Assembly: GCF_001425705.1 (NCBI RefSeq)
Contig: NZ_LMDC01000003.1
Location: 13,309-77,308, forward strand
DNA from: Pelomonas sp. Root1217
GTDB lineage: Bacteria > Pseudomonadota > Gammaproteobacteria > Burkholderiales > Burkholderiaceae_C
Length of the DNA: 64,000 nucleotides
Direction: 5' to 3'
Both the position numbers and the translations under genes were made by a program. Of this stretch, positions 32,122 to 64,000 are shown piece after piece; the stretch's first letter is position 1, and every line of letters begins with the position of its first letter. The notes beneath the pieces were generated by a model that was given only the letters and a program-made list of their open reading frames with translations, did no database searches and was not told the origin of the DNA.

Positions 32122-32277
32122 CGTGCAGGCGGGACGTCCAACCTGCTGAGTGACGGCACGCGCCATTCCGTTCCCCATGTCGACAGACAGATCTGCCGCA
32201 GGGAACTAAGCGGCGGCGCCAGTTACTTACCGCCCGAACTCCTGCCTGCCCTGTTCGGCAAGCTCACTCGGACCACC
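32122..32277. promoter_or_regulatory. Divergent control region between ppkA and tssA
   Basis: 156 bases separate the opposite starts of the kinase gene and the T6SS operon, so promoters for both must lie here. GGAACT at 32202-32207, facing tssA, resembles the -35 element of several ECF sigma factors, and an ECF sigma gene is nearby; no matching -10 is convincing. Low confidence on any specific element. Confidence 0.4.
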
Positions 32278-33381
32278 ATGGACAGCAATCCCTTCGACCC
32301 GTCGCCCGACACCGCACCGTCGCTCAGCAGCGACCCCGCGCTGGCGCCGTGGCTGCAGCCCGTGTCCGAGGATGAGGTCTGCGGCCCCGACCTGGAATAC
32401 GACAACGACTTCCTGGCCTTGACCCAGGCGGCTGCGGGCAAACCCGAAACCCAGTTCGCGTCCGCCGAGCCGCCCGACTGGCGCACCGTGCGCAGCCTGG
32501 CCGAGGACATCAACGCCCGCACCCGCGACCTGCGCGTGGCCAACCTGCTGCTGCGCGCCCGGCTGCGCCTGGAAGGCTTCGCGACGCTGGCCCCGGGCCT
32601 GCGCCTGTTCGAGGAGTTGCTGACGCGCTGGTGGGACGAACTCCACCCTCGCCCCGAGGATGGCGACGCGTTTGCGCGGGTCAATGTCCTCAATGAGCTG
32701 GCCAGCCTGGACACCACACTGGGCGACGTCCGTGCCAGCCTGGTGCTGAACGACCGCGGCATCGGCCAGATCAGCGTGCGTGACATCGAGATCGCCATGG
32801 GCGACCTGGCGGCGCGCGACGACGAATCGACCCCCTCGCGTGGTCAGATCGAGAACATGCTGGCCGACGCCGTGGCCGGCTACCCGGTGCTCGCCACCCA
32901 GGCGCCCGCCGCCGTCGCGGCGCTGGATTCGCTGGTGGCCTGCCTGTCCGTGCGCCTCAACTATGGCGACGTGCCCGACTTCTCGGCGCTGCGCGCGATG
33001 CTGGACGCCGTCATCGCCGTCTCGCCGCGCCCGGTCAGCATCGACGCTTCGGCGGACGACCTCGCCGGCATGCTCAACGACCTGGGCATCGCCCAGGGCC
33101 AGGACGGCGGTGGCGACTCGCCCGCGCCTGCCCGCCGCGGCCGCAGCGGCGGCGGTGGCGGTCTGGGGGCGATCGAGAGCCGCGCCGACGCCGTGCGCGC
33201 CATCGACCTGGTCTGCGCCTACCTTGAGAAGAACGAACCCACCAACCCTGCGGCCGACCTGCTGCGCCGTGCGCAACGTCTCATCGACCGCAACTTCCTG
33301 CAGCTGGTACGAGAGTTTGCCCCCGAGGCAGTGAGCGAGGTGGCTCGTATGCTGGGTGTGGACCCTGAAAGCCTGCAGTAG
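32278..33381 (+). CDS. tssA: T6SS baseplate/sheath-cap protein TssA
   Basis: 367 aa. TssA organises the baseplate and guides tail polymerisation. The ImpA-N domain is clear: ALAPWLQPVSEDEVCGPDLEYDNDFLAL, PDWRTVRSLAEDINARTRDLRV, then ARLRLEGFATLAPGLRLFEELL and WWDELHPRPEDGDAFARVNVLNELA. After a Gly/Ala linker (ARRGRSGGGGG) comes a short helical C-terminal module (RADAVRAIDLVCAYLEKNEP, LLRRAQRLIDRNFLQLV, VARMLGVDPES). This short-tailed form corresponds to TssA1-type proteins. First gene of the plus-strand T6SS operon; the ATG at 32278 begins family sequence, whereas the long upstream open frame is the shadow of ppkA. Confidence 0.9.
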   Translation: MDSNPFDPSPDTAPSLSSDPALAPWLQPVSEDEVCGPDLEYDNDFLALTQAAAGKPETQFASAEPPDWRTVRSLAEDINARTRDLRVANLLLRARLRLEGFATLAPGLRLFEELLTRWWDELHPRPEDGDAFARVNVLNELASLDTTLGDVRASLVLNDRGIGQISVRDIEIAMGDLAARDDESTPSRGQIENMLADAVAGYPVLATQAPAAVAALDSLVACLSVRLNYGDVPDFSALRAMLDAVIAVSPRPVSIDASADDLAGMLNDLGIAQGQDGGGDSPAPARRGRSGGGGGLGAIESRADAVRAIDLVCAYLEKNEPTNPAADLLRRAQRLIDRNFLQLVREFAPEAVSEVARMLGVDPESLQ

Positions 33382-33485: not shown

Positions 33486-33980
33486 ATGAGCAAGAGCAGC
33501 CAGAAATTCATCGCCCGCAACCGGGCCCCGCGGGTGCAGATCGAGTATGACGTCGAGCTCTACGGCGCCGAGAAGAAGGTGCAGCTGCCCTTCGTGATGG
33601 GTGTGATGGCCGACCTGTCCGGCAAGCCCGAGGACCCGCTGCCGCCGGTGGCCGACCGCAAGTTCCTCGAGATCGATGTCGACAACTTCGACTCGCGCAT
33701 GAAGTCCATGAAGCCGCGCGTCGCCTTCCAGGTCGAGAACACGCTGACCGGCGAGGGCAACCTGCCGGTGGACATCACCTTCGAGAGCATGGACGACTTC
33801 TCGCCCGCCGCCGTGGCGCGCAAGGTCGACGGCCTGAACAAGCTGCTCGAGGCCCGCCAGCAACTGTCCAACCTGATCACCTACATGGACGGCAAGAGTG
33901 GCGCCGGCGACCTGATCGCCAAGGTGCTGGCCGACCCGACGCTGCTGAAGACGCTGACCGACGCACCCAAGTCCGAGTAA
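33486..33980 (+). CDS. tssB: T6SS contractile sheath small subunit TssB (VipA)
   Basis: 164 aa. Partners TssC to form the contractile sheath around the Hcp tube. Typical features: SSQKFIARNRAPRVQIEYDVE, VQLPFVMGVMADLSGKPEDP, RKFLEIDVDNFDSRMKSMKPRV, ITFESMDDFSPAAVARKV, and the C-terminal ClpV-contact helix region (DLIAKVLADPTLLKTL). A strong AAGGAG lies eight to nine bases before ATG 33486. The 104-base gap after tssA shows no gene. Followed 33 bases later by tssC. Confidence 0.95.
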   Translation: MSKSSQKFIARNRAPRVQIEYDVELYGAEKKVQLPFVMGVMADLSGKPEDPLPPVADRKFLEIDVDNFDSRMKSMKPRVAFQVENTLTGEGNLPVDITFESMDDFSPAAVARKVDGLNKLLEARQQLSNLITYMDGKSGAGDLIAKVLADPTLLKTLTDAPKSE

Positions 33981-34013: not shown

Positions 34014-35507
34014 ATGACCCAAGCGGAACAGTCAGCATCGGCCCTGGCGGGCGTGACCTTCGAAGGCAATGACTTCGCGGCACTGCTGAACAAGGAATTC
34101 AAGCCCAAGACCGAGGAGGCGCGCGGCGCCGTGGCGCAGGCCGTGCAGACGCTGGCCCAGCAGGCGCTGAGCAACACCACGCTGCTCAGCGACGACGCCG
34201 TCAAGACCATCGAGGCCATGATCGCGGCCATCGACAGCAAGCTCACCGAGCAGATCAACAAGATCATGCACCACGAGGACTTCCAGAAGCTGGAATCCGC
34301 CTGGCGCGGCCTGCACTACCTCGTCAACAACACCGAGACCGACGAGCAGCTCAAGATCCGCGTCATGAATGTCTCCAAGACCGATCTTGGCAAGACGCTC
34401 AAGCGCTTCAAGGGCACCGCCTGGGACCAGTCGCCGCTGTTCAAGCGCCTGTATGAAGAGGAATACGGCCAATTCGGCGGCGAGCCCTATGGCTGCCTGG
34501 TGGGCGACTACCATTTCGACCACACACCGCCCGACGTCGAGCTGCTCGGGGAACTGTCCAAGATCGCTGCCGCCGCCCACGCGCCGCTGGTGACCGGCGC
34601 CGCGCCCAGCGTCATGCAAATGGAAAGCTGGCAGGAACTCGCCAACCCGCGGGACCTGACCAAGATCTTCACGACGCCCGAGTACGCCGCCTGGCGGTCC
34701 CTGCGCGAGTCCGACGACGCCCGCTACCTGGCCTTGTGCATGCCGCGCTTCCTGTCGCGCGTGCCTTATGGCGCCAAGACCAGCCCGGTCGACGAGTTCG
34801 CCTTCGAGGAAGACACCGAGGGCGCTGACCACAGCAAGTACACCTGGTCCAACGCCGCCTACGCGATGGCCGTGAACATCAACAGCTCGTTCAAGCAGTA
34901 CGGCTGGTGCTCGCGCATCCGCGGCATCGAATCCGGCGGCGCGGTGACCGGCCTGCCCACCCACACCTTCCCGACCGACGACGGCGGCGTGGACATGAAG
35001 TGCCCGACCGAGATCGCCATCTCGGACCGTCGCGAGGCCGAGCTGAGCAAGAACGGCTTCCTGTCGATGGTGCACCGCAAGAACAGCGACTTCGCGGCCT
35101 TCATCAGCGGCCAGTCGCTGCAAAAGCCCGCCGAGTACGACGATGCCGACGCGACCGCTAATGCGGCACTCGCGGCCCGCCTGCCCTATCTGTTCGCCTG
35201 CAACCGCTTCGCCCACTACCTGAAGTGCATCGTGCGCGACAAGGTCGGCTCCTTCAAGTCGCGCGACGCGATGGAAGACTGGCTGAACAGCTGGATCCTG
35301 AACTACGTCGACGGTGACCCGATGAACTCGTCGGAAGAGACCAAGGCCAGCCGCCCGCTCGCGGCCGCCCAGGTCGAGGTTTCGGAAGTGGAAGGCGCAC
35401 CGGGCTACTACCAGTCCAAGTTCTACCTGAAGCCGCATTACCAGCTCGAAGGCCTGACCGTGTCCCTGCGCCTGGTCTCGAAGCTGCCGTCCGAAAAGTC
35501 GGCCTGA
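34014..35507 (+). CDS. tssC: T6SS contractile sheath large subunit TssC (VipB)
   Basis: 497 aa. Large sheath subunit, whose N-terminal helix is recognised by ClpV during recycling. Family motifs include INKIMHHEDFQKLESAWRGL, YLVNNTETDEQLKIRV, GCLVGDYHFDH, AAAHAPLVTGAAPSVM, LALCMPRFLSRVPYG, FAFEED, WSNAAYAMAVNI, CPTEIAISDRREAELSKNGF and ARLPYLFACNRFAHYLK. Complete length for TssC. CGGAG precedes the start. A second, TssC-like region is encoded at 62282-64000 and shares several of these motifs. Confidence 0.96.
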   Translation: MTQAEQSASALAGVTFEGNDFAALLNKEFKPKTEEARGAVAQAVQTLAQQALSNTTLLSDDAVKTIEAMIAAIDSKLTEQINKIMHHEDFQKLESAWRGLHYLVNNTETDEQLKIRVMNVSKTDLGKTLKRFKGTAWDQSPLFKRLYEEEYGQFGGEPYGCLVGDYHFDHTPPDVELLGELSKIAAAAHAPLVTGAAPSVMQMESWQELANPRDLTKIFTTPEYAAWRSLRESDDARYLALCMPRFLSRVPYGAKTSPVDEFAFEEDTEGADHSKYTWSNAAYAMAVNINSSFKQYGWCSRIRGIESGGAVTGLPTHTFPTDDGGVDMKCPTEIAISDRREAELSKNGFLSMVHRKNSDFAAFISGQSLQKPAEYDDADATANAALAARLPYLFACNRFAHYLKCIVRDKVGSFKSRDAMEDWLNSWILNYVDGDPMNSSEETKASRPLAAAQVEVSEVEGAPGYYQSKFYLKPHYQLEGLTVSLRLVSKLPSEKSA

Positions 35508-35599: not shown

Positions 35600-36100
35600 A
35601 TGGCAGTCAATGCATTCCTCACCTTCTTCGACAAGGCCGATGGCGAGTCCATCCAGAAGGGCAAGGAGAAGTGGATCGAGATCCAGGGCTGGGACTGGGA
35701 AGTCGAGGCTGAGACCAGCTGGACCAAGGGCGGCGGCGCATCCGTCGGCAAGCCCAACCCCGGCAAGATGAACTGGGAACACTACTTCGACACCTCGTCG
35801 ACCGTGATCCTGGGCTATATCTGCACCGGCAAGGCCTTCCCCAAGGTCGAGCTGCAGATGATGAAGACCACGGGCAGCGCCACGCCCGAGACCTACTTCA
35901 CGATGACGATGGAAGGTTGCTTCATCACCAAGGTCAACCAGAGCGGCACCGAGGAAGGCAACGTCACGCAGAAGGTCGAAATGGTCTTCAAGACCGTCAA
36001 GATCGAATACAAGCCGCAGGACAACAAGACCGGCAAGCTCGGCGCGCCCAAGACGTACAACTGGGACATTCCGGCTGGTACGGCTTCGCCGTCGGCATAA
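35600..36100 (+). CDS. hcp: T6SS inner-tube protein Hcp (TssD)
   Basis: 166 aa. Hcp hexamers stack into the expelled tube and can carry effectors. The sequence is canonical: VNAFLTFFDKADGESIQKG, WIEIQGWDWEVEAETSWTKG, NWEHYFDTSSTVILGYICTG, VELQMMKTTG, YFTMTMEGCFITKVNQSGT, VEMVFKTVKIEYKPQDNKTG. It has the strongest ribosome site of the locus (AAAGGAGAT about seven bases before ATG 35600), in keeping with the large amount of Hcp needed. About 90 bases separate it from tssC, and a GC-rich gap of 152 bases follows. Confidence 0.95.
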   Translation: MAVNAFLTFFDKADGESIQKGKEKWIEIQGWDWEVEAETSWTKGGGASVGKPNPGKMNWEHYFDTSSTVILGYICTGKAFPKVELQMMKTTGSATPETYFTMTMEGCFITKVNQSGTEEGNVTQKVEMVFKTVKIEYKPQDNKTGKLGAPKTYNWDIPAGTASPSA

Positions 36101-36252
36101 ACAGGTTCGCCCCCTACCGGCTGCGCCGGCCCCCATCCGGGGGCGCCGCTGGCGGCCCGGCAAAGCCGGTTCCGCGGCGGCCGCTGGGTCGGGCACTACT
36201 TGCCTGAAGCTCATTCGCTCTCGTCGCCGCAGTCTTATTCCTCTGACCGTTC
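36101..36252. other. GC-rich gap with hairpin after hcp
   Basis: No gene. It contains GCCCCC-atcc-GGGGGC-type inverted arms (about 36129-36145) embedded in very GC-rich sequence of the kind often repeated between genes in this group of bacteria. It could limit read-through after the highly expressed hcp gene. No T-run follows, so it is not a classic terminator. Confidence 0.35.
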
Positions 36253-36801
36253 ATGAGTCGTTCGAACATCTTCATGCAACTCATCACCGGCGCCGGGCCG
36301 GTGGTGGGCGAGGGCCTGCTCGAAGGCTGGGAAGGCTCGATCGAGCTGCTGGAGTTCGGCTGGGGCATGCAGGCCCTCAAGGACCCCAAGAGCAAAGCCA
36401 GCGGCCTGGCCGCAGCGGCAGCCGCCGCTGCAGCCTCGATGGCGGGGCTGGGTACGCCCGTCACCATCAAGATGCAACCGCTGACCTTCAAGAAGCGGTT
36501 TGACGTTGGCTCCTCGCAGATGCATTTCTGCCTGGACAACCACCTGCCCGTGCTCAGTGCGTCCATCACCGTGCTGCACATCAAGCAGCAGGGCCGCGCC
36601 ATCCATCAACCTGGCTTCACCGTCGTCTGCACGCAAGGCTACTTTGCCGACTGTGCCCTGGAGGTGTCAGACGATGGCCTGTCCAAGGAGGTGAGGGAAA
36701 GCTGGACCCTCAACTTCAAGAACATCAAGATGATGTATCTGAAGACCCTCGGCAAGGACAACCTGCCCACGGCCCCCTTCTTCCACCCATTGGCCCTCTG
36801 A
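36253..36801 (+). CDS. Divergent Hcp-fold protein with short Ala-rich insertion
   Basis: 182 aa. The strand order of Hcp is recognisable: SNIFMQLITGAGPVVGEGL, WEGSIELLEFGWGMQAL, then an alanine-rich insertion (about 50-65), KMQPLTFKKRFDVGSSQMHFC, and near the end SWTLNFKNIKMMYLKTL. It lacks close identity to the hcp at 35600, so it is a paralogue with another role: a specialised tube protein, a cap or an effector carrier. No ribosome site is obvious. Its stop shares a base with the next gene's start (TGATG, 36799-36803), so the two are coupled. Assignment to the Hcp superfamily is by pattern only. Confidence 0.65.
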   Translation: MSRSNIFMQLITGAGPVVGEGLLEGWEGSIELLEFGWGMQALKDPKSKASGLAAAAAAAAASMAGLGTPVTIKMQPLTFKKRFDVGSSQMHFCLDNHLPVLSASITVLHIKQQGRAIHQPGFTVVCTQGYFADCALEVSDDGLSKEVRESWTLNFKNIKMMYLKTLGKDNLPTAPFFHPLAL

Positions 36802-37670
36802 TGTCCAACAACGGCGCCGACATCTTCCTGGTTCTGCTGCGCCCCACCCGCGTACCGGTCGTGGGCGAGGCAGCGTCCGAAGGCTTCCAGGGGCAGATCC
36901 TGGTGGAAACGCTCAACTGGAAGCTGCACAACGAGGACGAGCGCAAGAGCGCCAGCAAGGCGGCAGCGGCCTTCACCCTGGCCAGCGGCAGAGCAGACAA
37001 GCAAGGCAGCAACGAGCTGCGCGCCATGCATGCGGCCAGCGACGATTACCAGAAGCGGGACAAGCGGCTGCAGGAGTCCTTCGCGAAAGCCCAGCGTGGC
37101 GGCAATTTTTCCGAGGTGGACTGGAAAGCCCACCAGGACCAGCGTGATGCCCTCGGCGCGGCTTTCAACAAGAAGCTCGAAAGCATCGCCAGGGATCCGA
37201 ACGCCTTCGCGCCTCCCGACCCGCAAAAGGCCGAAAAGGCGGCCACGCTGCAAGGCGAACGGGAGAAGCAGTACGCGGACCTCGAACGCAACCGCAATTT
37301 CGAGTTCACGTTCACCAAGCGGGTCGACATCGCCAGCACGCAGATGCTGAACTCGATGAAGGCGGGCAACATCTTCCCCTCGGGCACGCTCACCATCCAC
37401 AGGCGCTCGGCGACGTTTTTGGACGGTACTTCGCTGATCTTCACCATCCAGAAGATCCGCCTGCTGGAATACGAGCTGGATGTGGTCGTGAACGAGACCA
37501 TGACGGAGATGATGGAGAAGTGGACCTGCGAGTTCGGCTCGCTCGCCTACATCTACAAGAACCCGCCGTCGCACTACTCGCACAGCAACACCGGCCAGGC
37601 CGTCGCCAAGACCGCGTCGCAGAACACGACGCGCGCCTTCACGATGAAGAACATCGGTTCTCCAATCTAA
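36801..37670 (+). CDS. Hcp-fold protein with long helical insertion
   Basis: 289 aa. The opening (NGADIFLVLLRPTRVPVVGE, then FQGQILVETLNWKLHNED) and the end (FEFTFTKRVDIASTQMLN, LTIHRRSATFLDGTSLIFTI, WTCEFGSLAYIYK) follow the same order as the Hcp-like gene before it. Between them, at about residues 47-163, lies a charged, coiled-coil-like insertion (DDYQKRDKRLQESFAKAQRG, KAEKAATLQGEREKQYADLE). Known Hcp proteins are about 160-170 aa, so the insertion is unusual and would project from the ring, outside or into the lumen. Coupled to the previous gene by a one-base overlap. Role unknown; candidate cargo-bearing or adaptor Hcp. Confidence 0.62.
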   Translation: MSNNGADIFLVLLRPTRVPVVGEAASEGFQGQILVETLNWKLHNEDERKSASKAAAAFTLASGRADKQGSNELRAMHAASDDYQKRDKRLQESFAKAQRGGNFSEVDWKAHQDQRDALGAAFNKKLESIARDPNAFAPPDPQKAEKAATLQGEREKQYADLERNRNFEFTFTKRVDIASTQMLNSMKAGNIFPSGTLTIHRRSATFLDGTSLIFTIQKIRLLEYELDVVVNETMTEMMEKWTCEFGSLAYIYKNPPSHYSHSNTGQAVAKTASQNTTRAFTMKNIGSPI

Positions 37671-37676
37671 GCCCCC

Positions 37677-38246
37677 ATGGCCCTGACCAATTACCGAGAC
37701 GTCAGCACGTCGATGAGCGACGTGTCGGCGGGCTTTCAATTCGAGTTCTTCTGCGAGAAATGCGGTGAGAGCTCGCGTTCGGCCTTCAGGCCCTATCGCA
37801 AGGGCCAGATCACTGGATGGCTGAGCCGTTTCGCCTTCATGTTCTACGACCTGAACAAGGCCAGCCGCGCCACCGGTGCGTTTGCCGAAGCTGGTGCCAG
37901 CGGCGCCAAGGGCGAGGCCCTGGCCGAGGCGATGGCGGCCGCAGCGCCGCTGTACGAGAAGTGCAGCGGTTGCCGCAAATGGGTCGGCCGCGAATGTTGG
38001 AACAGCAGCAGCAACAGCTGCCGCGATTGCGCCGCCCGTTCCGCGCTGGATGCGGGTTCGGCCAGCCAGGGCGCCGCCAGCGGGGGTGGCTCGGCCTGCC
38101 CCAACTGCCAGACGCCCAGCCAGGGCGGGCGCTTCTGCCACGAATGCGGCTTCGACATGGCCAGCACGCACAAGAGCTGCCCGGCCTGCGGCATCACCCT
38201 CTCGCGGCAAGCCCGCTTCTGCACGGACTGCGGCCATGGCTTCTGA
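37677..38246 (+). CDS. Multi-zinc-ribbon protein in T6SS operon
   Basis: 189 aa. It has several CxxC knuckles: CEKC at about residue 26, CSGC near 99, a C-C-C-C group (CWNSSSNSCRDC) just after, then a tandem double zinc ribbon at the C-terminus (CPNC, CHEC, CPAC, CTDC). The middle has an aromatic patch (GWLSRFAFMFYD) and an Ala/Gly-rich linker, but no certain membrane helix. It begins six bases after the long Hcp-like gene. Zinc-ribbon proteins are not core T6SS parts; this one may act as a scaffold or chaperone for the divergent Hcp proteins. Family membership beyond zinc ribbon is not recognised. Confidence 0.65.
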   Translation: MALTNYRDVSTSMSDVSAGFQFEFFCEKCGESSRSAFRPYRKGQITGWLSRFAFMFYDLNKASRATGAFAEAGASGAKGEALAEAMAAAAPLYEKCSGCRKWVGRECWNSSSNSCRDCAARSALDAGSASQGAASGGGSACPNCQTPSQGGRFCHECGFDMASTHKSCPACGITLSRQARFCTDCGHGF

Positions 38247-38258
38247 AATGAACTGGCG

Positions 38259-38390
38259 CCCCTCGTCCGGTCTCGCCCCGCTGAACGCGGACGTGCCCAG
38301 CCGGTCCCCCGTGGGGACGCCGGCGCTTGCGGCATCGAACCGCAAGCGTCGTCAGGCGGGCCGGCTCGGGAGCGGCCCAGCGCTCGGCCC
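38259..38390 (+). repeat. Dispersed repeat, copy 1 (inverted partner at 54430-54564)
   Basis: About 132 bases, nearly identical to the reverse complement of 54430-54564. Both copies share CCCCTCGTCCGG at one end, CAGCCGGTCCCCC in the middle, a GCTTGCGGC...GCCGCAAGC-like hairpin, and GGCTCGGGAGCGGCCCAGCG plus CTCGGCCC at the other end. It fills the gap between the zinc-ribbon gene and tagJ. No open frame or transposase is present; a small non-autonomous intergenic element is likely. Confidence 0.75.
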
Positions 38391-38437
38391 GAACACGCTT
38401 TCATGCGCAGCGGGTGGCGCAGCGCTGTGGAGATGAC

Positions 38438-39268
38438 ATGACCCCCCAACAAGCTGCCGAAGAAGCCGTTCGCGCCGGCGACCCGCGCACCGCACTCGCC
38501 AAGCTGACCGAGGCCGTGCGCGCCAAGCCGGCCGACCCCAAGCTGCGCACCTTCATGTCCCAGCTGCTCAGCGTGCTCGGCCAGTGGGAACGCGCCCACA
38601 CCCAGCTCAATGTCGTCGCCGACATGGACAAGCTGGCCATCCCGATGCGCGAGACCGTCGGCCACGCCATCCGCTGCGAGCTGCTGCGCGCCCAGGTGTT
38701 TTCCGGCAAGCGCACGCCGGTTGTCTTCGGCCAGCCCGAGGCCTGGGTGGCCCAGTTGATCGAATCTCTCAAGCAGCAGGCCGAGGGCAACCACCAGCTT
38801 GCGGCCGACCTCGCCACCAAGGCCTTCGAGGCCGCGCCAACGAGTGCGGGCAGCATCGACGGCCAGCGCTTCGAGTGGCTGGCCGACGCCGATTCGCGCC
38901 TGGGCCCGGTGCTCGAGGTCTGCCTCAACGGCCACTACACCTGGGTGCCCTTCCAGCACCTGGCCAAGATTCATTTCGACGCGCCCGAGGACCTGCGCGA
39001 CTGCGTCTGGATGCCGGCGCAGCTGAGCTTCACCAACGGCGGCAACAGCGTCGCCCTGGTGCCCACGCGCTATCCCGGTTCCGAGAAGAGCGAGGATGGC
39101 CTCATCAACCTGGCGCGCAAGACCGAATGGCAAGCCCTGCCAGGCGAGGACCGCTATGCCGGCCTGGGCCAGCGCGTGCTGACCAGCGACATCGGTGACC
39201 ACGACCTGATGGCCGTCAGAGAAATTCTCTTCGACGCCAGCGAGGCCACGCAGACCGAAGGCAACTGA
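38438..39268 (+). CDS. tagJ: T6SS accessory protein TagJ (ImpE family)
   Basis: 276 aa. TagJ binds the sheath subunit TssB in phosphorylation-regulated systems and may help ClpV-driven recycling. The start ATG 38438 has GGAG five bases upstream. An N-terminal tetratricopeptide-like helical part (AAEEAVRAGDPRTALAKLTE, LGQWERAHTQLNVVADMD) is followed by the ImpE domain (WLADADSRLGPVLEVCLNGHY, WVPFQHLAKIHFDAPEDLRD, VWMPAQLSFTNGG, VALVPTRYPGSE). The stop shares a base with the tssE start (TGATG). Length and layout match ImpE. Confidence 0.9.
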   Translation: MTPQQAAEEAVRAGDPRTALAKLTEAVRAKPADPKLRTFMSQLLSVLGQWERAHTQLNVVADMDKLAIPMRETVGHAIRCELLRAQVFSGKRTPVVFGQPEAWVAQLIESLKQQAEGNHQLAADLATKAFEAAPTSAGSIDGQRFEWLADADSRLGPVLEVCLNGHYTWVPFQHLAKIHFDAPEDLRDCVWMPAQLSFTNGGNSVALVPTRYPGSEKSEDGLINLARKTEWQALPGEDRYAGLGQRVLTSDIGDHDLMAVREILFDASEATQTEGN

Positions 39269-42744: not shown

Positions 42745-42802
42745 ATCAGCGCAGCGGAACCGAACGGCGGCCTTGGTCACTCAGCACCGAGGAGAACTGG
42801 AA

Positions 42803-45478
42803 ATGACTGACATCAGCCGCCAAGCCCTGTTCGGCAAGCTCAACCCGCTGGCCTACAAATCCATCGAAGGCGCCACCGTCTTCTGCAAGCTCAGGGGCAA
42901 CCCTTATGTCGAGCTGGTGCACTGGATCACCCAGCTGCTGGAGAACAACGAGTCCGACGTCAGCGCCATCGTGCGCCACTACGGGCTGGACGCGGCGGCG
43001 CTGGCGCGTGACGTGACGACCGCGCTGGACCGCCTGCCGCGCGGGTCGACGGCCATCAGCGACTTCTCCGAGCACATCACCCACGCCATCCAGCAGGGCT
43101 GGGTCTATTCGACGCTGATGTACGGCGACGCTCAGGTGCGTTCGGGCCACCTGCTGCTGGCACTGCTGTCCACGCGCACGCTGCGTGAAGCGCTGTTCGG
43201 CATCTCGCGCCAGTTCGAGAAGATCAAGGCCGATGACCTGGCCGACAAGCTGCAAAGCCTGGTCGGCAAGACCGGCGAAGCCGGCCTGGGCGCCACCGAC
43301 GGCAGCGCGTTGAACAGCGCGCAACCCGGCCAAGCCGAGGGCGCGATGGCTCCCGCCGCCATGGGCCGCCAGGAGGCGCTGAAGAAGTTCACCGTCGACC
43401 TGACCGAGAAGGCGCGCAAGGGCGAGATCGATCCGGTGACGGGTCGCGACGACGAGATCCGTCAGATCGTCGACATCCTGATGCGCCGCCGCCAGAACAA
43501 CCCGCTGCTGACCGGCGAGGCCGGTGTCGGCAAGACGGCCGTGGTGGAAGGCTTTGCGCTGCGCCTGGCACGCGGCGACGTGCCGCCGCCCATGCAGGGC
43601 GTCACGCTGCTGACGCTGGACATCGGCCTGCTGCAGGCCGGCGCGTCCATGAAGGGAGAGTTCGAGCAGCGCCTGCGCCAGGTCATCGACGAGGTGCAGG
43701 GCAGCCCCACGCCCATCATCCTGTTCATCGACGAGATCCACACCCTCGTCGGCGCGGGTGGCGCCGCCGGCACGGGCGACGCAGCCAACCTGCTCAAGCC
43801 CGCCCTGGCGCGCGGCAACCTGCGCACCGTGGGCGCGACGACCTGGGCCGAGTACAAGAAGTACATCGAGAAGGACCCGGCCCTGACCCGCCGCTTCCAG
43901 ACCGTGCAGGTCGAGGAGCCCGACGAGAAGAAGGCCATCCTGATGCTGCGCGGCGTCGCCACGGTGCTGGAGAAGCACCACAAGGTCCAGCTGCTCGACG
44001 AGGCCATCGAGGCCGCCGTCAAGCTGTCGCACCGCTACATCCCGGCCCGCCAACTGCCCGACAAGGCCGTCAGCCTGCTCGACACCGCCTGCGCCCGCGT
44101 CGCCGTCAGCCAGCACGCGATGCCGGCCGAGGTGGAGGACTGCAAGCGCCGCATCGAGTCGCTGGAGATCGAGCAGGGCATCATCGGCCGTGAGGCCCAG
44201 GTGGGCGTGCATATCGGCGACCGCGGCGTCGGCGTTGAGGAGAAGCTGGCCAACGAACGCGCGCGGCTGGCGACGCTGGAAGTGCGCTGGCAGCAGGAGA
44301 AGGACGTCGTCGCGAGGATCCTGGAGCTGCGCGCCAAGTTGCGCGGTGACGGCCAGCCGGTCGACGAGGCGGCTTCGGCCCAACCCGACCGCGACGGCCT
44401 GCTCGGCGAGATGCACGCAGCGCAAGCCCAGCTCGCCGAACTGCAGGGCGATGCGCCGCTGATCCTGCCCTCGGTGGACGCCCAGGCCGTCGCCAGCGTC
44501 GTCGCCGACTGGACCGGCATCCCCGTCGGCCGCATGGTCAAGAACGAGCTGGAAGCCGTGCTGCGCCTGGGCGCCACGCTGGGCCAGCGCGTCATCGGCC
44601 AGCAGCATGGCCTGGACATGATCGCCCGGCGCATCCAGACCTCGCGCGCCAAGCTCGACAACCCGAACAAGCCCATCGGCGTCTTCATGCTGTGCGGCAC
44701 TTCGGGCGTCGGCAAGACCGAGACGGCGCTGGCGCTGGCGGAGTCGCTGTACGGCGGCGAGCAGAACGTCATCACCATCAACATGAGCGAGTACCAGGAG
44801 TCGCACACCGTCTCCACGCTCAAGGGCGCGCCTCCGGGCTACGTCGGCTACGGCGAAGGCGGCGTGCTTACCGAGGCCGTGCGCCGCCGGCCCTACAGCG
44901 TCGTGCTGCTGGACGAGGTCGAGAAGGCCCACCCCGACGTGCACGAACTCTTCTTCCAGGTCTTCGACAAGGGCTGGATGGAGGACGGCGAAGGCCGCAT
45001 GATCGACTTCAAGAACACCATCATCCTGCTGACCAGCAATGTGGGTTCCGAGCTCATCATGAACATGTGCCGCGACCCTGAACTGCTGCCCGACCCCGAG
45101 TCGCTGGCCACGGCGCTGACCGAGCCGCTGCAGAAGGTTTTCCCGCCGGCGCTGCTGGGTCGCATCGTCACGATCCCCTACTACCCGCTGAGCGATGAGA
45201 TGCTGGCCCGCATCGTGCGCCTGCAGCTCGGCCGCATCGTCAAGCGCGTGGCCGAGAACCATCGCATCCCCTTCGAGTACAGCGACGCGGCGGTGGAGCT
45301 CATCGTCAAGCGCTGCAACAACGCCGAATCGGGCGGCCGCATCATCGACGCCATCCTGACCAACACGGTGCTGCCCAAGGTGTCGATCGAGTACCTGTCG
45401 CGCACGGCCTCCGGCCAACCGCTGCAGAAGGTCAGCCTCGGCGTGACCGATGGCGATTTCAGCTACGCCTTTGATTGA
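42803..45478 (+). CDS. clpV: T6SS AAA+ ATPase ClpV (TssH)
   Basis: 891 aa. ClpV disassembles contracted sheaths by threading TssC. The start ATG 42803 (MTDISRQALF) has GAGGAG eight bases upstream; an in-frame ATG at 42773 is less likely. N-domain repeats bind the TssC helix. The two ATPase domains have Walker A GEAGVGKTA (about 238) with Walker B FIDEIHTL, and GTSGVGKTE (about 632) with LLDEVEKAH; a coiled-coil middle domain lies between them (LEVRWQQEKDVVARILELRA). The ClpB-type C-terminus is complete. A palindromic CACAGAG repeat follows about 20 bases after the stop. Confidence 0.96.
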   Translation: MTDISRQALFGKLNPLAYKSIEGATVFCKLRGNPYVELVHWITQLLENNESDVSAIVRHYGLDAAALARDVTTALDRLPRGSTAISDFSEHITHAIQQGWVYSTLMYGDAQVRSGHLLLALLSTRTLREALFGISRQFEKIKADDLADKLQSLVGKTGEAGLGATDGSALNSAQPGQAEGAMAPAAMGRQEALKKFTVDLTEKARKGEIDPVTGRDDEIRQIVDILMRRRQNNPLLTGEAGVGKTAVVEGFALRLARGDVPPPMQGVTLLTLDIGLLQAGASMKGEFEQRLRQVIDEVQGSPTPIILFIDEIHTLVGAGGAAGTGDAANLLKPALARGNLRTVGATTWAEYKKYIEKDPALTRRFQTVQVEEPDEKKAILMLRGVATVLEKHHKVQLLDEAIEAAVKLSHRYIPARQLPDKAVSLLDTACARVAVSQHAMPAEVEDCKRRIESLEIEQGIIGREAQVGVHIGDRGVGVEEKLANERARLATLEVRWQQEKDVVARILELRAKLRGDGQPVDEAASAQPDRDGLLGEMHAAQAQLAELQGDAPLILPSVDAQAVASVVADWTGIPVGRMVKNELEAVLRLGATLGQRVIGQQHGLDMIARRIQTSRAKLDNPNKPIGVFMLCGTSGVGKTETALALAESLYGGEQNVITINMSEYQESHTVSTLKGAPPGYVGYGEGGVLTEAVRRRPYSVVLLDEVEKAHPDVHELFFQVFDKGWMEDGEGRMIDFKNTIILLTSNVGSELIMNMCRDPELLPDPESLATALTEPLQKVFPPALLGRIVTIPYYPLSDEMLARIVRLQLGRIVKRVAENHRIPFEYSDAAVELIVKRCNNAESGGRIIDAILTNTVLPKVSIEYLSRTASGQPLQKVSLGVTDGDFSYAFD

Positions 45479-58120: not shown

Positions 58121-61100
58121 ATGAAGAAATTCCTGTCCATCCTGTTCCACCCGATCACCCTCGGGATCTTCGGCCTGCTCGTCATCTCGGCCCTGGTCTG
58201 GTGGGTCGGCCCGCTGATCGCCTTTGGCGAGCACCGTCCGCTGGACACCAGCTTCGCGCGCTGGATCGCGCTGGCCGTCGTCTGGCTGCTGGGCGGCCTG
58301 CGCCTGGTCTGGACGCAGATGCGCCGCCGCCGCATCAATGCCGCCCTCGTCAAGGGCATGGGCGGCGGCCCCTCGGCCTCTGCCAAGGAAGAGGCGGTGC
58401 TGCAGGAGCGCTTCACGCAGGCCCTGACGTTGCTGAAGAAGGCACCGGGCACCAAGAAGGGCCTGTTCGGCGGCAACTCGCTCTATGACCTGCCCTGGTA
58501 TGTCTTCGTTGGCGCGCCGGGCTCGGGCAAGACGACGGCGCTGCTGAATGCCGGCCTGAACTTCCCGCTGACGGAGAAGCTCGGCCAGGCCAGCGTGCGC
58601 GGCGTCGGCGGCACGCGCAACTGCGAATGGTGGTTCAGCGACGAGGCCGTCCTCATCGACACCGCCGGCCGCTACGCGACGCAGGACTCCGACAAGGAGA
58701 CCGACGCGTCGGCCTGGAACACCTTCCTCGACCTGCTGCGCAAGGCCCGCCCGCGCCGCCCCATCAACGGCGTGCTGCTGACCATCAGCGTGCAGGACCT
58801 GCTGGCCCTGCCGCCCGAGCAGCGCAAGGAGCAGGCCTCCCGCATGCGCGGCCGCATGCAGGAGCTGCAGCAGCGCCTGGGCGTGCGCGCGCCGGTCTAT
58901 GTGATGGTCACCAAGTGCGACCTGCTGGCCGGCTTCAACGAGACTTTCGGCCCCATGGGCAAGGAGGAGCGCGACCAGGTCTTCGGCTTCAGCTTCCCCG
59001 TCTCGATGGCACCCGGCGAGGAGACGCTGGCCAACTTTGGCAGCGAGTTCGCGTCGCTGGAGAAGCGCCTGCGCGAGCGCCTCATCGAGCGCATGGAGGC
59101 CGAGAGCGACACCCTCAAGCGCGCCACGCTGTTCGCCTTCCCGCAGCAGTTCGGCGGGCTCAAGGGGCTGCTCGGCGGCTACCTGGAAACCGTCTTCGGC
59201 GGCGGCGGCCCGCTGGACGAGCCGCCGCGCCTGCGCGGCGTCTACTTCACCAGCGGTACCCAGGAAGGCACGCCCATCGACCGCGTGCTCGGCGCGCTGG
59301 CTCGCACCTTCGGCGTCGAGCGGCGACTCACGCCACCCGCCGCGGCCAAGGGCCGCAGCTATTTCCTGAACCACCTGCTGCGCAAGGTCGTGTTCGTCGA
59401 GCAGGGCCTGGTGGGCCAGAACGCCCAGGTCGAGCGCCGCAGCGCGCGCTTGCGACTGGCCGGCCTGGCGACCCTGGGCCTCGTCACGCTGACGTTGCTG
59501 GTCGGCTGGGGCTTCAGCTACTTCGGCAACCAGCGCTACATCAGCGACATCGAGGCCAAGCTGCCGGCCCTGCAGGACACCATCAAGGCGCTGCCGCCCA
59601 CCAGCGGCAGCGACCCCTCGGCCCTGCCCGAGGCCTTGGCCGCCATCCGCGACGCGGCCCAGCCGCCCGGCTTCGCACTGGACAACCCGCCGCTGTCCCT
59701 GGGCTTCGGCCTGTTCCAGGGCGACAAGCTCGACGCTGGCGCCCAGGTCTCCTACCACCGCCTGCTGCAGCGCGGCCTGGCGCCGCGCGTCGCCGCCCGC
59801 CTGGAGGAGCGCCTGCGCACCGCCAACCGCGACAACCTCGAATTCGCCTACGAGTCGCTGAAGGCCTATCTGATGCTCTACACGCCCGAGCATCTGGACG
59901 CACCAGGCCTGCAGGCCTGGGTGGGCCTGGACTGGGACGCGAATCTCGAAGGCAGCCTCGGCGCCGAGAAGGTGGCGCTGCTGAAGAACCACCTCGACGC
60001 CCTGCTGTCGCGCGGTGCGTTTGAAGTGGCCCAGCCGATGGACAAGACGCTGGTGGCCAGCGTGCGCGAGATGCTGGGCGCCTACCCGCTCGAGTACCGC
60101 ATCTTCAGCCGGCTGCGCCGCGCCCAGATCGACGGCGACCTACCGCCCTTCACGGTCGCCGCCGCGGCCGGCCCGCAGAGCCCTAACGTCTTCGTGCGTG
60201 CCAGCGGCCTGCCGCTGACCCAGGGCATCCCGGGCATGTTCACCAAGGACGGCTACAAGAAGGCCTTCCAGACCTCGGTAGACAAGACCGCCAAGCAGCT
60301 CGCCGACGAGGAGGCCTGGGTGCTGGGCACCAACGCCGCCACCGCCAAGCGCCAGGCGGCTGACAAGACGCTGGTGGAGCGCGTGCGCCGCCTCTACCTG
60401 GAGGAGTACGTCAAGGTCTGGGACGCGTATCTCGCCGACGTGCGCCTCGTGAAGCTCAACGGCCTGGACCGCGGCATCGCCGTGTCGCGCCTGGTGTCGG
60501 CCGTGGACTCGCCGCTGGCGGCCTTCCTGCGCGCCGCGTCCAGGGAGACGACGCTGATCGACCCGGTCAGCAACGACAACAGCATCAACAAGGAGCTGAA
60601 CAAGCGCGCCGATGACGCCGTCTTTGCCAAGGGCGGCGAGCTGGCCCGCCTGGCCGGCAACCAGGCCAAGGCACCGACGTCCATCTCGCGCGACGGCCCG
60701 CTGGAGAAGATCGTCGACGACCACTTCGCCGCGCTGCGCCGCCTGGTGACCGGCACGCCACCGCCTCTGGACGACGTGATGAAGATGTTCAACGAGGTCT
60801 ATGTGCAACTCAGCGCCGTGCAGGAAGCCTTGAAGAGCAAGTCACCGCCGCCTGCCGGTGGTGGTGGCGGCAAGCTCAAGGCCGCTGCCGGCCAGCAGCC
60901 CGAGCCGCTGCGCGGCGCGCTGGAGACACTGGCCGAGGCCGCCGACAACCAGAGCCGCCTGGTGGAGCGCCAGAGCCTGACCGGCGAACTGCAACCGGTC
61001 AGCGAGTTCTGCTCGCGCGCCATCGCCGGCCGCTACCCCGTCGCGCAGGGTTCCAAGGTCGACGTGCTGCCGGAAGACTTCGGCCAGTTCTTCGCCCCCG

Positions 61101-61663
61101 GCGGCATGATGGATGACTTCTTCACGCGCAAGCTCAGCCCCCTGGTCGATGTCGGCACCAACCCCTGGAGCTTCCGGCCCACGGGTGATGGAGCGAAGCC
61201 GGTGTCGCCGGCGGCCCTGGCCGACTTCCAGCGCGCCACCCGCATCCGCGAGGTCTTCTTCCGCGGCGGCGGCAAGTCGCCAGCCTTCCGTGTCGACGTG
61301 CGCGTGCTGGAGCTCAATGACGGCCTGAAGGAGCTGACCCTGGACATCGACGGCCAGGTCAGCAAATTCACCGCCGGCAGCAACCAGGCCGTCAGCCTGC
61401 AATGGCCCGGCGCGCGCCTGAGTTCGCAGATCAAGCTGAGCGGCCAGCCGGGCGGCACGCCCGTCACCTTCGACGGCCCCTGGGCGCTGTTCCGCCTCTT
61501 CGACCGCTTCGAGGTGCAGGGCTCGCCGCAGCAGCCGGAGCGCTTCGTCGTCGTCATCAACCTCGATGGCCACCGCGCCCGGCTGGAGGTCACGGCCAGC
61601 AGCGTGTTCAACCCCTTCCGGCTGCGCGAGCTGCAGCAGTTCCGCTGCCCGGGGGCGCTGTGA
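58121..61663 (+). CDS. tssM: T6SS membrane-complex ATPase-like protein TssM (IcmF/VasK)
   Basis: 1180 aa. TssM spans the inner membrane and forms the periplasmic shell of the envelope complex. There are two N-terminal helices (ITLGIFGLLVISALVWWVG and WIALAVVWLLGGLRLVW) and a third at about 447-467 (LATLGLVTLTLLVGWGFSYF). The cytoplasmic GTPase-like domain keeps Walker A GAPGSGKTT at about 131-139 and DTAGRYATQD. The long periplasmic region contains LKAYLMLYTPEHLDAPGLQA, RLYLEEYVKVWDAYLADVRL and the C-terminal beta domain (WPGARLSSQIKLSGQPGG, FDGPWALFRLFDRFEVQGS) that binds TssJ in other systems. Full length. Its stop overlaps tagF (GTGA). Confidence 0.95.
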   Translation: MKKFLSILFHPITLGIFGLLVISALVWWVGPLIAFGEHRPLDTSFARWIALAVVWLLGGLRLVWTQMRRRRINAALVKGMGGGPSASAKEEAVLQERFTQALTLLKKAPGTKKGLFGGNSLYDLPWYVFVGAPGSGKTTALLNAGLNFPLTEKLGQASVRGVGGTRNCEWWFSDEAVLIDTAGRYATQDSDKETDASAWNTFLDLLRKARPRRPINGVLLTISVQDLLALPPEQRKEQASRMRGRMQELQQRLGVRAPVYVMVTKCDLLAGFNETFGPMGKEERDQVFGFSFPVSMAPGEETLANFGSEFASLEKRLRERLIERMEAESDTLKRATLFAFPQQFGGLKGLLGGYLETVFGGGGPLDEPPRLRGVYFTSGTQEGTPIDRVLGALARTFGVERRLTPPAAAKGRSYFLNHLLRKVVFVEQGLVGQNAQVERRSARLRLAGLATLGLVTLTLLVGWGFSYFGNQRYISDIEAKLPALQDTIKALPPTSGSDPSALPEALAAIRDAAQPPGFALDNPPLSLGFGLFQGDKLDAGAQVSYHRLLQRGLAPRVAARLEERLRTANRDNLEFAYESLKAYLMLYTPEHLDAPGLQAWVGLDWDANLEGSLGAEKVALLKNHLDALLSRGAFEVAQPMDKTLVASVREMLGAYPLEYRIFSRLRRAQIDGDLPPFTVAAAAGPQSPNVFVRASGLPLTQGIPGMFTKDGYKKAFQTSVDKTAKQLADEEAWVLGTNAATAKRQAADKTLVERVRRLYLEEYVKVWDAYLADVRLVKLNGLDRGIAVSRLVSAVDSPLAAFLRAASRETTLIDPVSNDNSINKELNKRADDAVFAKGGELARLAGNQAKAPTSISRDGPLEKIVDDHFAALRRLVTGTPPPLDDVMKMFNEVYVQLSAVQEALKSKSPPPAGGGGGKLKAAAGQQPEPLRGALETLAEAADNQSRLVERQSLTGELQPVSEFCSRAIAGRYPVAQGSKVDVLPEDFGQFFAPGGMMDDFFTRKLSPLVDVGTNPWSFRPTGDGAKPVSPAALADFQRATRIREVFFRGGGKSPAFRVDVRVLELNDGLKELTLDIDGQVSKFTAGSNQAVSLQWPGARLSSQIKLSGQPGGTPVTFDGPWALFRLFDRFEVQGSPQQPERFVVVINLDGHRARLEVTASSVFNPFRLRELQQFRCPGAL

Positions 61664-62274
61664 GCGGCGTTGCCGGTTGGTATGGCAAGTTGCCGGCACT
61701 CGGTGATTTCGCCTCGCGGCGCCTCACGCCGGAATGGATCACTCAATGGGATGGCTGGCTGGCCGCCGGCCTGCACCAGCTGCGCGTCGACGCGCCCGAC
61801 ACCTGGCTGAACGACTACCTCGCGAGCCCCGCCTGGCGCTTCGCGCTGCTGCCCGGCGCCTTGCCTGATGGCCCCGGTGAAGGCCTGCGCGTCGGCGTGA
61901 TGATCCCTTCGGTGGACCGGGTGGGCCGCTACTTCCCCCTCGTCGTCATCAGCCCACCACTGCCGCGCCCGAACGATGGCGCCCAGGTGGCCGCGCTGTG
62001 GCAGTGGGCCGGCCAGATCGAGGAGATCGCCGTCAACGCGCTGCACGAGGACTGGAGCGCCGAGACGCTGGACGCCGCCCTGACCGACGCGCCGCCGCCC
62101 GCCGCCGCCGCACCCGACCGATCACTGCCGCCCGCGCTGGCCAACCTGCTGAGCCAGGCCGCCTGGGATGGATTGCAAGGCTGCAGCCTGTGGCTGCATG
62201 CCGGTGGCGGCCCGAGCGTGCAACCCGCGCTGCCCCAAGGCGCGGCCTTCGCTGCCTTGTTTAGACCGAACTGA
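61660..62274 (+). CDS. tagF: T6SS-associated protein TagF
   Basis: 204 aa from GTG 61660, overlapping the tssM stop. TagF is a post-translational repressor of assembly that acts on FHA in phosphorylation-controlled systems. It opens GVAGWYGKLPALGDFASRRL, the invariant TagF beginning, followed by WLAAGLHQLRVDAPDTWLND, WRFALLPGALPDGPG, MIPSVDRVGRYFPLVVISPP and LSQAAWDGLQGCSLWLH. The open frame extends further upstream, inside tssM, but is not family-like. Eight bases after its stop the TssB-TssC-like gene begins. Confidence 0.9.
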   Translation: MSGVAGWYGKLPALGDFASRRLTPEWITQWDGWLAAGLHQLRVDAPDTWLNDYLASPAWRFALLPGALPDGPGEGLRVGVMIPSVDRVGRYFPLVVISPPLPRPNDGAQVAALWQWAGQIEEIAVNALHEDWSAETLDAALTDAPPPAAAAPDRSLPPALANLLSQAAWDGLQGCSLWLHAGGGPSVQPALPQGAAFAALFRPN

Positions 62275-62281
62275 GGACGCC

Positions 62282-64000
62282 ATGAGCGACTGGACCCCCA
62301 ACTACGGCCAACTCTCGGCCCCCGCTCCTGCCTGGGCCGCCAAGCGGCCCATCCGCATCGCGTTGCTGGGCGACTTCGGCGCGGGCGCCGCTGCCGGCCG
62401 CCTGGACACCGGCGACGAGCTGGCCCGCCGCAAGCCGCGCGCCGTCGAATTCGACTCGCTCGAGGACTGGCTGGGCCAGCAGAACATCACACTGAGCCTC
62501 CCGATCGGTACCGACGGCGCGCCGGTCGAGATCCCGCTCGCCGACATGGACTCCTTCCATCCCGACACGCTGTTCCGCGAGCTGGACCTGTTCAAGAAGC
62601 TCAACGACCTGCGCAAGCGCCTCAACAACACCGCCAGCTTCGACAAGGCAGCGGCCGAGGTTGCCAAGTTCGCTGGCAGCAGCCAAAAGGCATCGCGCGC
62701 GGGCCGCGGCGCGCGGGCCCGCGGCGCCAGCCCGTCGGCCGGCTCGCGGCTGGACGATTTCGCGCGCCTGACCGGCCGCACGAGCGCGCCCGACAGCGGC
62801 GGCGGCATCGACACGCTGCTGCGCAACGTCATCGGCCCCTTCGTCGTGCCGGCGGCCAAGCCCGAGAAGGCCGGCCTCTTGAACACCTTGGACGCAGCGA
62901 TTGCCGACGGCATGCGCGCCGTGCTGCATCAGGCCGACTTCCAGGCCACCGAGTCGCTGTGGCGCGGCGTCGACTTCCTGCTGCGCCGGCTCGAGACCGG
63001 GCCGATGCTGCAGGTGCACCTCATCGACATCAGCGCCGAGGAGTTCGCCGCCGACCTCAGCGCCAGCGACGACCTCAGCGACAGCGGCCTGTACCGGCTG
63101 CTGGTGAGCAAGCCCGCCGAGGCCAAGGACGGCGGCTACACCTACGTCGCCGGCCTCTACCAGTTCGAGGCCACGCCGCCGCACACCGAGTTGCTGGGCC
63201 GCATGGCCAAGGTCGCCGCAGCGGCCGGTGCGACCTTCTTCACCGCGATGGCCGTGGACGAGCTCAGCAACCCGCGCGTGCCGCCGCACCCGCTGGTGGT
63301 GGACGCCTTCGCAGCCCTGCGCGGCCTGCCGGAGTCCAAGCGCCTGGCCCTGCTCGGCCCGCGCTTCCTGATGCGCCACCCCTACGGCAAGCGCAGCGAT
63401 CCGATCTCATCCTTCGCCTTCGAGGAATTCACGATGGCCGACGGCCTGGGCGGGCTGCTGTGGGGTCACCCGGCGCTGCTGGCACTGACGGTGCTGGCCG
63501 GCCAGAACGGCGCGCCCAACGTCAACGATCTGCCCTTCCACCACTTCGTCGATGCCGACGGCGACAGCACGGCCCTGCCCTGCACCGAGCGCTTCATTTC
63601 CTCGATGGTGGCGACCGAACTGGGCCGCTACGGCATCAAGGCGCTGATGGCGCACAAGGGCGAACCGCTGGTGCAGCTCACCGGCCCGGACACCGTGGCG
63701 GGTGTCTTCACACCGCCGGCCGCCGGCGCCGCCAAGCCGGGCGCGCGGATGGGGGTGGAGCTGGCGGTGCGCAGCAAGCTGGCCGAGCCCGACCAGCGGC
63801 CAGCGCGCAAGGGCGCCGCCAATGCCGAGCCTGAGGTATCGGACGACACGGCTGTAGAAGCCGACGCCGAGGCCAATACCGCCACCTCATCAGACAGCTC
63901 GCCCGACAGCAGCGACCTGGACGCCCTGCTCGCCGGCTTGAATTCGGACGACGCCGCGCCCGCACCCGAACCAGCCGCGTCGGACAGCGACGACCTCGAT
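62282..64000 (+). CDS. TssB-TssC-like fusion protein with acidic tail, partial (runs off window)
   Basis: 573 codons lie in the window; ATG 62282 has GAGGA upstream. Residues about 20-130 look like TssB (PIRIALLGDFGAGAAAGRLD, RAVEFDSLEDWLGQQ, LADMDSFHPDTLFRELDLFK, LNDLRKRL). A Gly/Arg/Ala/Ser-rich linker (GRGARARGASPSAGSR) leads to a TssC-like region at about 180-480: LHQADFQATESLWRGVDFLL, LQVHLIDISAEEFA, YTYVAGLYQFEATPPHTELL, LALLGPRFLMRHPYGKR, SFAFEEFTMADGLGG, ISSMVATELGRYGIKALMAH. From about 515 it becomes acidic and disordered. Intact tssB and tssC are in the same locus, so this is an extra sheath-like protein; its job is unknown. The C-terminus is not seen. Confidence 0.75.
   Translation, partial: MSDWTPNYGQLSAPAPAWAAKRPIRIALLGDFGAGAAAGRLDTGDELARRKPRAVEFDSLEDWLGQQNITLSLPIGTDGAPVEIPLADMDSFHPDTLFRELDLFKKLNDLRKRLNNTASFDKAAAEVAKFAGSSQKASRAGRGARARGASPSAGSRLDDFARLTGRTSAPDSGGGIDTLLRNVIGPFVVPAAKPEKAGLLNTLDAAIADGMRAVLHQADFQATESLWRGVDFLLRRLETGPMLQVHLIDISAEEFAADLSASDDLSDSGLYRLLVSKPAEAKDGGYTYVAGLYQFEATPPHTELLGRMAKVAAAAGATFFTAMAVDELSNPRVPPHPLVVDAFAALRGLPESKRLALLGPRFLMRHPYGKRSDPISSFAFEEFTMADGLGGLLWGHPALLALTVLAGQNGAPNVNDLPFHHFVDADGDSTALPCTERFISSMVATELGRYGIKALMAHKGEPLVQLTGPDTVAGVFTPPAAGAAKPGARMGVELAVRSKLAEPDQRPARKGAANAEPEVSDDTAVEADAEANTATSSDSSPDSSDLDALLAGLNSDDAAPAPEPAASDSDDLD

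Follow-up and report, generated by a model that had tools for sequence, protein, structure and literature searches.

The stretch analyzed here (the window; 64,000 nucleotides, positions 13,309 to 77,308 of contig NZ_LMDC01000003.1) comes from the 6.6-Mb genome of Pelomonas sp. Root1217 and carries a type VI secretion system (T6SS) cluster. At its 3' edge, an open reading frame (ORF) joins TssB-like and TssC-like parts to an acidic tail in one frame, as a first-pass annotation made from the letters alone had proposed; Pfam recognizes both sheath halves (VipA and VipB), and the intact tssB/tssC pair that the annotation had seen in the same cluster was identified with Pfam and NCBIfam (Table 1). 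The ATG at 62282 lies 7 bases 3' of the tagF stop codon (TGA, 62272-62274), which bears out the reported adjacency to tagF, and a GAGGA stretch is found within this gap, shortly 5' of the ATG. The start had thus been placed correctly, but the end at 64000 had not: the frame is open through the end of the window and, in the contig sequence beyond it, runs to a stop at the window-equivalent positions 64109-64111, giving a protein of 609 amino acids (aa). Chance motifs or a chance open frame are ruled out by the Pfam matches, a genome survey, a profile-profile match, and a confident structure model; the single-chain fusion is a real protein and not an artifact.

Table 1. Genes of the T6SS cluster and parts of the fusion ORF (window coordinates)
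Feature	Position	Strand	Evidence
Canonical tssB	33486..33980	+	Pfam, NCBIfam
Canonical tssC with two sheath domains; DFAALL near the N-terminus (residues 20-25)	34014..35507	+	Pfam, NCBIfam, pattern scan
tagJ (ImpE family)	38327..39268	+	Profile match
clpV/tssH	42773..45478	+	NCBIfam
tssM	58121..61663	+	NCBIfam
tagF, TagF N-terminal domain; exact start codon unsettled	61642..62274	+	Pfam, NCBIfam
Fusion ORF, 609 aa	62282..64000, continuing beyond the window to the stop at 64109-64111	+	Frame and contig sequence
TssB-like half, residues 23-116; TssB residues 1-33 (N-terminal arm) and 134-164 unmatched	62348..62629	+	Pfam VipA; hhalign
Segment between the halves (residues 135-165), mostly ordered, with LSDFARLxG and basic RxRG	62684..62776	+	Structure model; conservation
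TssC-like half, residues 200-468, stops short of the TssC inner gpW/gp25-like domain	62879..63685	+	Pfam VipB; BLASTP; structure
Acidic tail, residues 476-609, extends beyond the window	63707..64000	+	ORF sequence; tail survey; structure model
Tail motif 1, DLDALLAGL, residues 545-553; model helix 544-554	63914..63940	+	Pattern scan; structure model
Tail motif 2, residues 571-579	starts 63992	+	Pattern scan
Tail motif 3, residues 600-608	past window end	+	Pattern scan

The N-terminal half matches Pfam VipA with 25.4 bits (gathering score, 24) and an E value of 1.4e-5, and hhalign aligned a profile of 20 fusion N-termini to one of 8 TssB sequences with a probability of 97.8 (E 1.1e-12), so that the resemblance of the first ∼130 residues to TssB holds. 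This match spans TssB residues 34 to 133 only and leaves the N-terminal arm without a counterpart. The TssC-like half matches Pfam VipB (PF05943) with an E value of 4.4e-32 (111.8 bits against a cut-off of 27) and, in BLASTP, aligns with the window TssC at 30% identity over 290 positions (TssC residues 69 to 357); the likeness therefore extends well beyond the short motifs (DFQ..ES.WRG, PYG, FEE) whose recurrence had been pointed out before. The inner gpW/gp25-like domain (VipB_2, PF18945), which the window TssC matches at 5e-43, gave no match in the fusion at an E value of ≤0.01, and the TssC-like half stops before this domain, a point absent from the earlier annotation. Likewise, no counterpart of the TssC N-terminal helix was found in the fusion core with Pfam, BLASTP, or hhalign. 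Both NCBIfam equivalog cut-offs are missed, with 23.2 bits against 97.25 for TssB (TIGR03358) and 116.9 bits against 271.5 for TssC (TIGR03355), for which the window TssC scores 722.

The structure model of the fusion alone, suggested as a check at the outset, has a confident sheath fold resembling the single-chain sheaths of phages, pyocins, and extracellular contractile injection systems (eCIS). The segment joining the halves had been described as a basic flexible linker. It is basic, but it is mostly ordered: block-mean values of the predicted local distance difference test are 83 to 93 over residues 131 to 160, only about residues 161 to 170 are loose, and L157, F160, L163, and G165 are conserved at 93 to 100% in 57 aligned rows. 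The model was compared with known structures by VIA-align, whose output gives only the ends of the aligned range; by this measure, residues 292 to 383 of 3j9r fall outside the range. Single-chain pyocin, eCIS, and myophage sheaths have domain 1 and build the wall (for the pyocin comparison, see PMC5807055). The fusion shares with them a sheath domain 2 in one chain, and with canonical TssC/VipB and TssB/VipA it shares the domain 2 fold, the helices of domain 3, and the motifs named above. Alignments and model together indicate that the fusion keeps domain 2 and the domain 3 helices and appears to be without domain 1 and both arms; it is, as far as these predictions go, a sheath unit stripped of parts that a wall subunit needs, namely the inner domain of TssC and the arm of TssB.

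To describe the tail, we used 80 loci, the best 80 of at least 133 confirmed matches of a profile of tail fusions against genome contigs; all are tail fusions by choice of the query, and 75 have a closed 3' end. Every one of the 75 closed tails contains the motif [DE]-hydrophobic-x-x-L-[LM] (147 occurrences, against a mean of 7.1 and a maximum of 15 in 300 shuffles), 58 contain at least two, and in 70 the last motif ends 3 to 6 residues before the C-terminus. A stricter variant that requires [AS] ahead of the final two positions occurs in 71 of the 75 tails (117 occurrences; shuffle mean 1.6, maximum 6). An LLDEII-like pattern was not found in the closed tails (shuffle mean 1.2). Searched alone, the tail and the leash described below gave only sub-threshold, unrelated Pfam matches (GET2 the best, with an E value of 0.0044 and 17.2 of 25.5 bits, and HTH_62). 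The sequences thus point to a conserved tail with docking-like motifs.

In the family of the window's genome, 52 of 200 genomes have a TssC-like match (E ≤ 1e-20), and 18 have the fusion, all of them together with a canonical TssC match; one of the 18, G166, shows both halves in one search only. In the class, 65 of 369 genomes match the profile (E ≤ 1e-45), mostly through canonical TssC alone, and a fusion spanning both halves is present in 15, including the window's own. In the phylum survey (398 genomes, 86 matching), the fusion remains in three, again including the window's own, after removal of three loci (L080 to L082) whose match is interrupted by one or two stops and whose frame there has the ordinary length of a TssC, which we take to be neighboring tssB and tssC genes bridged by the profile. 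Genome G406 (L070), which matches profile positions 149 to 502 only, was not counted as a fusion. Of the 34 fusion genomes in the three surveys together, 33 have a separate TssC as well; only G412 does not, and this draft assembly, in about 290 contigs, is also without a ClpV match. A ClpV search of 35 genomes, G406 among them, and one plasmid record gave matches in 34 of these 36, the misses being G412 and the plasmid record; in the Eleftheria terrae plasmid record (L034), no ClpV match was obtained at an E value of ≤1e-200.

A tree of 130 VipB domains places 76 canonical TssC proteins in one clade and 35 tail fusions in another, both with 100/100 support, on which grounds we reject a recent origin by fusion of the window's own tssB and tssC genes. 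The 19 short fusions require two changes on this tree, and their placement is unsure because of long branches. The canonical TssC proteins of fusion genomes do not group with the fusions of the same genomes, so the fusion looks like a separate and apparently old lineage, with the age subject to the long branches and the unplaced root. The earlier suggestion that relatives might already be annotated as sheath large subunits without mention of the fusion was borne out: rows H1 to H23, four of which were opened, match both halves and are annotated "contractile sheath large subunit" without such a remark. Named loci belong mainly to Burkholderiales, Rhodobacterales, Acetobacteraceae, and other Alphaproteobacteria; others come from a gammaproteobacterial metagenome-assembled genome (MAG) and from MAG contigs labeled Planctomycetes and Spartobacteria, which may be misbinned.

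In 22 of the 80 loci, all alphaproteobacterial (Rhodobacterales, other Alphaproteobacteria, or, once, Rhizobium), the start of an intact canonical TssB lies in the same frame ahead of the fusion core. These ORFs have 836 to 1,757 aa, and TssB and core are connected by a leash of 71 to 1,006 residues that is 21 to 41% acidic and in most cases rich in LxxL. Plasmid records of Leisingera, Qingshengfaniella, and Ruegeria (three) have the fusion gene annotated as 1,063 to 1,370 aa; in the roseobacter records L035, L036, and L037, the annotated start lies 3' of a complete in-frame TssB with 71 to 76% identity to the window TssB. This form is the published TssCL, which the accessible part of the report by Suria and co-workers (2022; PMC9515649) describes as a 1,684-aa protein with two VipA domains and one VipB domain, adjoining intact tssB and tssC; its second VipA domain is short and divergent (26% identity), its VipB domain is 31% identical to TssC, and it was undetected outside Alphaproteobacteria. 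As far as that description goes, the same architecture occurs in Leisingera, Ruegeria, and others, and the window core is homologous (39% identity to L035), falls into the same clade as such forms, and likewise has intact tssB and tssC nearby. In contrast to TssCL as described there, the window form has neither a complete near-canonical N-terminal TssB nor a leash, and its core is also present in Burkholderiales, a few other Gammaproteobacteria, and the MAG contigs mentioned above. The fusion core, known in print for the marine roseobacter branch, thus occurs well beyond Alphaproteobacteria. Leash repeats, tail motifs, and the loss of the inner domain are not mentioned in the part of PMC9515649 that was accessible, the sole paper on such a fusion that we noticed in the open literature; preprints and most subscription papers were outside this coverage, and later work on TssCL may exist.

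Since domain 1 and the arms appear to be absent, the fusion should not polymerize. The earlier idea that a covalent TssB-TssC could seed the sheath is unlikely for the same reason, as the inner, polymerizing domain appears to be missing. We propose instead that the fusion is a non-polymerizing accessory of the sheath and that its tail docks a partner, possibly ClpV, a reading for which we see the case as evenly balanced. The fusion would sit on the sheath, at its end, or on free TssB/TssC, and the tail, which in most relatives has two or more short acidic Leu-rich motifs, with the last one at the protein end, would hold the partner. In roseobacters and some of their kin, the core hangs from a complete TssB by a leash that is acidic and often rich in Leu, and this TssB could join the wall as a normal subunit; this form points to the sheath as the place of action. 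A VipA-msfGFP fusion assembles, and msfGFP reportedly sits at the VipA C-terminus in that construct. The non-polymerizing build, the conserved C-terminal motifs, the tie to TssB, and the assembly of VipA-msfGFP favor a sheath-bound docking unit. Taken separately, a location at the sheath is somewhat probable, and we infer a docking role for the tail with similar confidence.

ClpV would be the best single guess for the partner, with rather low confidence. In Vibrio cholerae and enteroaggregative Escherichia coli, the N-terminal helix of TssC is bound by ClpV. The window TssC belongs to the EFASLL-type class, whose N-termini have a sequence resembling that helix, and among 31 proteins of the cluster and its neighbors, the strict motif pattern is present only in the TssC N-terminus and the fusion tail. 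TssC was of EFASLL type in all 18 tail-clade systems whose TssC N-terminus was read by eye (the window, 12 further genomes of its family, G411, and four plasmid records; lineages not independent; the tail of G116 is cut by a contig end; the second TssC copies L112 and L113 were excluded), and six of 19 short-fusion genomes have a non-EFASLL TssC. This co-occurrence is weak, because most TssC proteins from fusion-free genomes are also of EFASLL type. As a partner, ClpV could be gathered by the fusion at the contracted sheath or be kept off the growing one.

Several observations weigh against the proposed accessory or its ClpV partner. The strict pattern was devised after the tails had been seen, and a score matrix derived solely from TssC N-termini, which did not single out the tail motifs and gave the ClpV idea no support, ranked the best of them fifth, with 1.8 such scores expected by chance. 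The control for the tail motif is not clean, because the reversed pattern is enriched in tails as well (25 occurrences; shuffle mean 1.6). In the 19 short forms, the final 90 residues are always without the motif, which four of them have elsewhere; docking through a tail can therefore be at most part of what the family does. By the range ends that VIA-align returns, the aligned range of T6SS TssC chains ends at residues 444 to 451, within the second TssC domain, so that a few residues of this domain may superpose. Several loci, such as L049 and L050, have no match to a T6SS query within about 10 kb of the fusion; in both genomes (G143 and G054), a canonical TssC is present elsewhere. According to PMC4239648, the isolated N domain of Pseudomonas aeruginosa ClpV1 does not interact with HsiC1, and HsiC1 lacking its first 33 residues still interacts with full ClpV1; the window TssC is of the same class as HsiC1.

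The fusion might instead cap or terminate the sheath at the distal end or the first baseplate ring, with its domain 2 stacking on the last ring and no arms offered to the next, a possibility that we rate as rather low. The kept domain 2 fold and the loss of both arms fit a cap. TssE acts at the sheath end, and TssE/gp25, related to the inner domain alone (Pfam names VipB_2 gpW/gp25-like), is the opposite case and a precedent for split sheath domains at an end. A cap leaves the conserved tail and the TssB-leash form unexplained, as the leash TssB could join the wall anywhere, and many T6SS have no fusion (18 fusion-bearing family genomes against 52 with a TssC-like match). The fusion could also act as a decoy or regulator, binding free cytoplasmic TssB, TssC, or ClpV and restraining assembly or disassembly, but this is unlikely. 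Here, too, the anatomy argues against polymerization, and tagF, directly 5' of the fusion in many Burkholderiales, is a gene for a post-translational repressor; however, the TssB-like and TssC-like halves likely satisfy each other within one chain, and the linkage to tagF is not general. Docking of the tail to a CheY-like receiver or a different signaling protein is very doubtful. The N-terminal peptide of FliM (EIDALL) and the C-terminal peptide of CheZ bind CheY, and DLDALLAxL is near the former and C-terminal like the latter, but NCBIfam found no receiver domain among 20 proteins of the window cluster, and the sub-threshold Pfam matches of the tail are unrelated. That the fusion is an ordinary wall subunit, building the sheath alone or mixed with TssB/TssC, is least plausible of all: order and fold are those of single-chain phage and pyocin sheaths, but the inner domain and both arms were not found, and canonical TssC is almost always retained alongside.

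The fusion resembles TssC40 of Agrobacterium, in the accessible part of PMC3702570 a second TssC homologue that is non-redundant with TssC41 and dispensable for TssB stability. The fusion, too, is a second TssC relative, a comparison by description only, and no TssB part is described for TssC40 in that part of the source. In a more far-reaching version, which we consider rather improbable, the fusion would be an overlooked, old accessory of many T6SSs, an outer-domain sheath unit serving as a multivalent docking platform that sets when and where ClpV dismantles the sheath, and roseobacters would have wired this unit into the wall via a complete TssB, on a leash whose Leu-rich docking segments can number in the dozens. 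If this were true, the roseobacter leash form would in effect be a natural tag on the sheath.

Sheath parts are usually seen as wall, and a stripped, tailed sheath family would imply a sheath-associated function outside the usual list of core parts. The fusion is a good target for studying how contractile injection machines are built or recycled, and might give a handle on the timing of sheath growth and recycling in the TagJ/ClpV1-type class, in which, according to PMC4239648, binding by ClpV is more than a simple grip on the N-terminus of TssC. The plasmid records seen here annotate the fusion as a second TssC, so that the number of systems may come out wrong in surveys based on TssC counts.

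The gene neighborhood varies between groups. The tagF-adjacent arrangement held up in Burkholderiales, where the usual order is tssK-tssL-tssM-tagF-fusion, but not as a general rule: a TagF match lies near the fusion in 18 of the 80 loci and starts within 0.8 kb upstream in 13. Adjacency to tagF is a Burkholderiales feature, and clpV, vgrG, or tagH is found nearby in other groups, with the order clpV-(ion transporter)-fusion-vgrG ... tagH-tssK-tssL-tssM in Rhodobacterales and fusion-tagH-tssK in some Acetobacteraceae. In roseobacter loci, the ion-transporter-like gene that separates clpV from the fusion (L035 13947-14801 and equivalents) has matches in 22 of the 80 loci. By eye, P6_394 resembles P0011, the Leisingera gene that follows clpV, but tblastn at 1e-4 did not join the two.

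The two genes 3' of the fusion beyond the window (L003 7540-9216 and 9251-10810) gave no Pfam or NCBIfam match at an E value of 0.01; the first encodes acidic Leu-rich segments and has partial relatives in L034 (Eleftheria terrae) and L042, and the second contains HELGH, a zinc-protease-like motif. In the window, the tssA frame (30787-33381) begins with an open stretch of 519 residues ahead of the part that the TssA profile matches, perhaps a spurious high-GC extension. The region 35600-38243 contains three consecutive Hcp-family genes, the third of which (36801) has an Hcp match from residue 166 only, and then the gene of a zinc-ribbon protein (37677-38246). The Eleftheria terrae plasmid cluster has four consecutive Hcp genes and, about 13 kb downstream of the fusion (L034 33265-35364), six consecutive genes annotated as RebB-family R-body genes.
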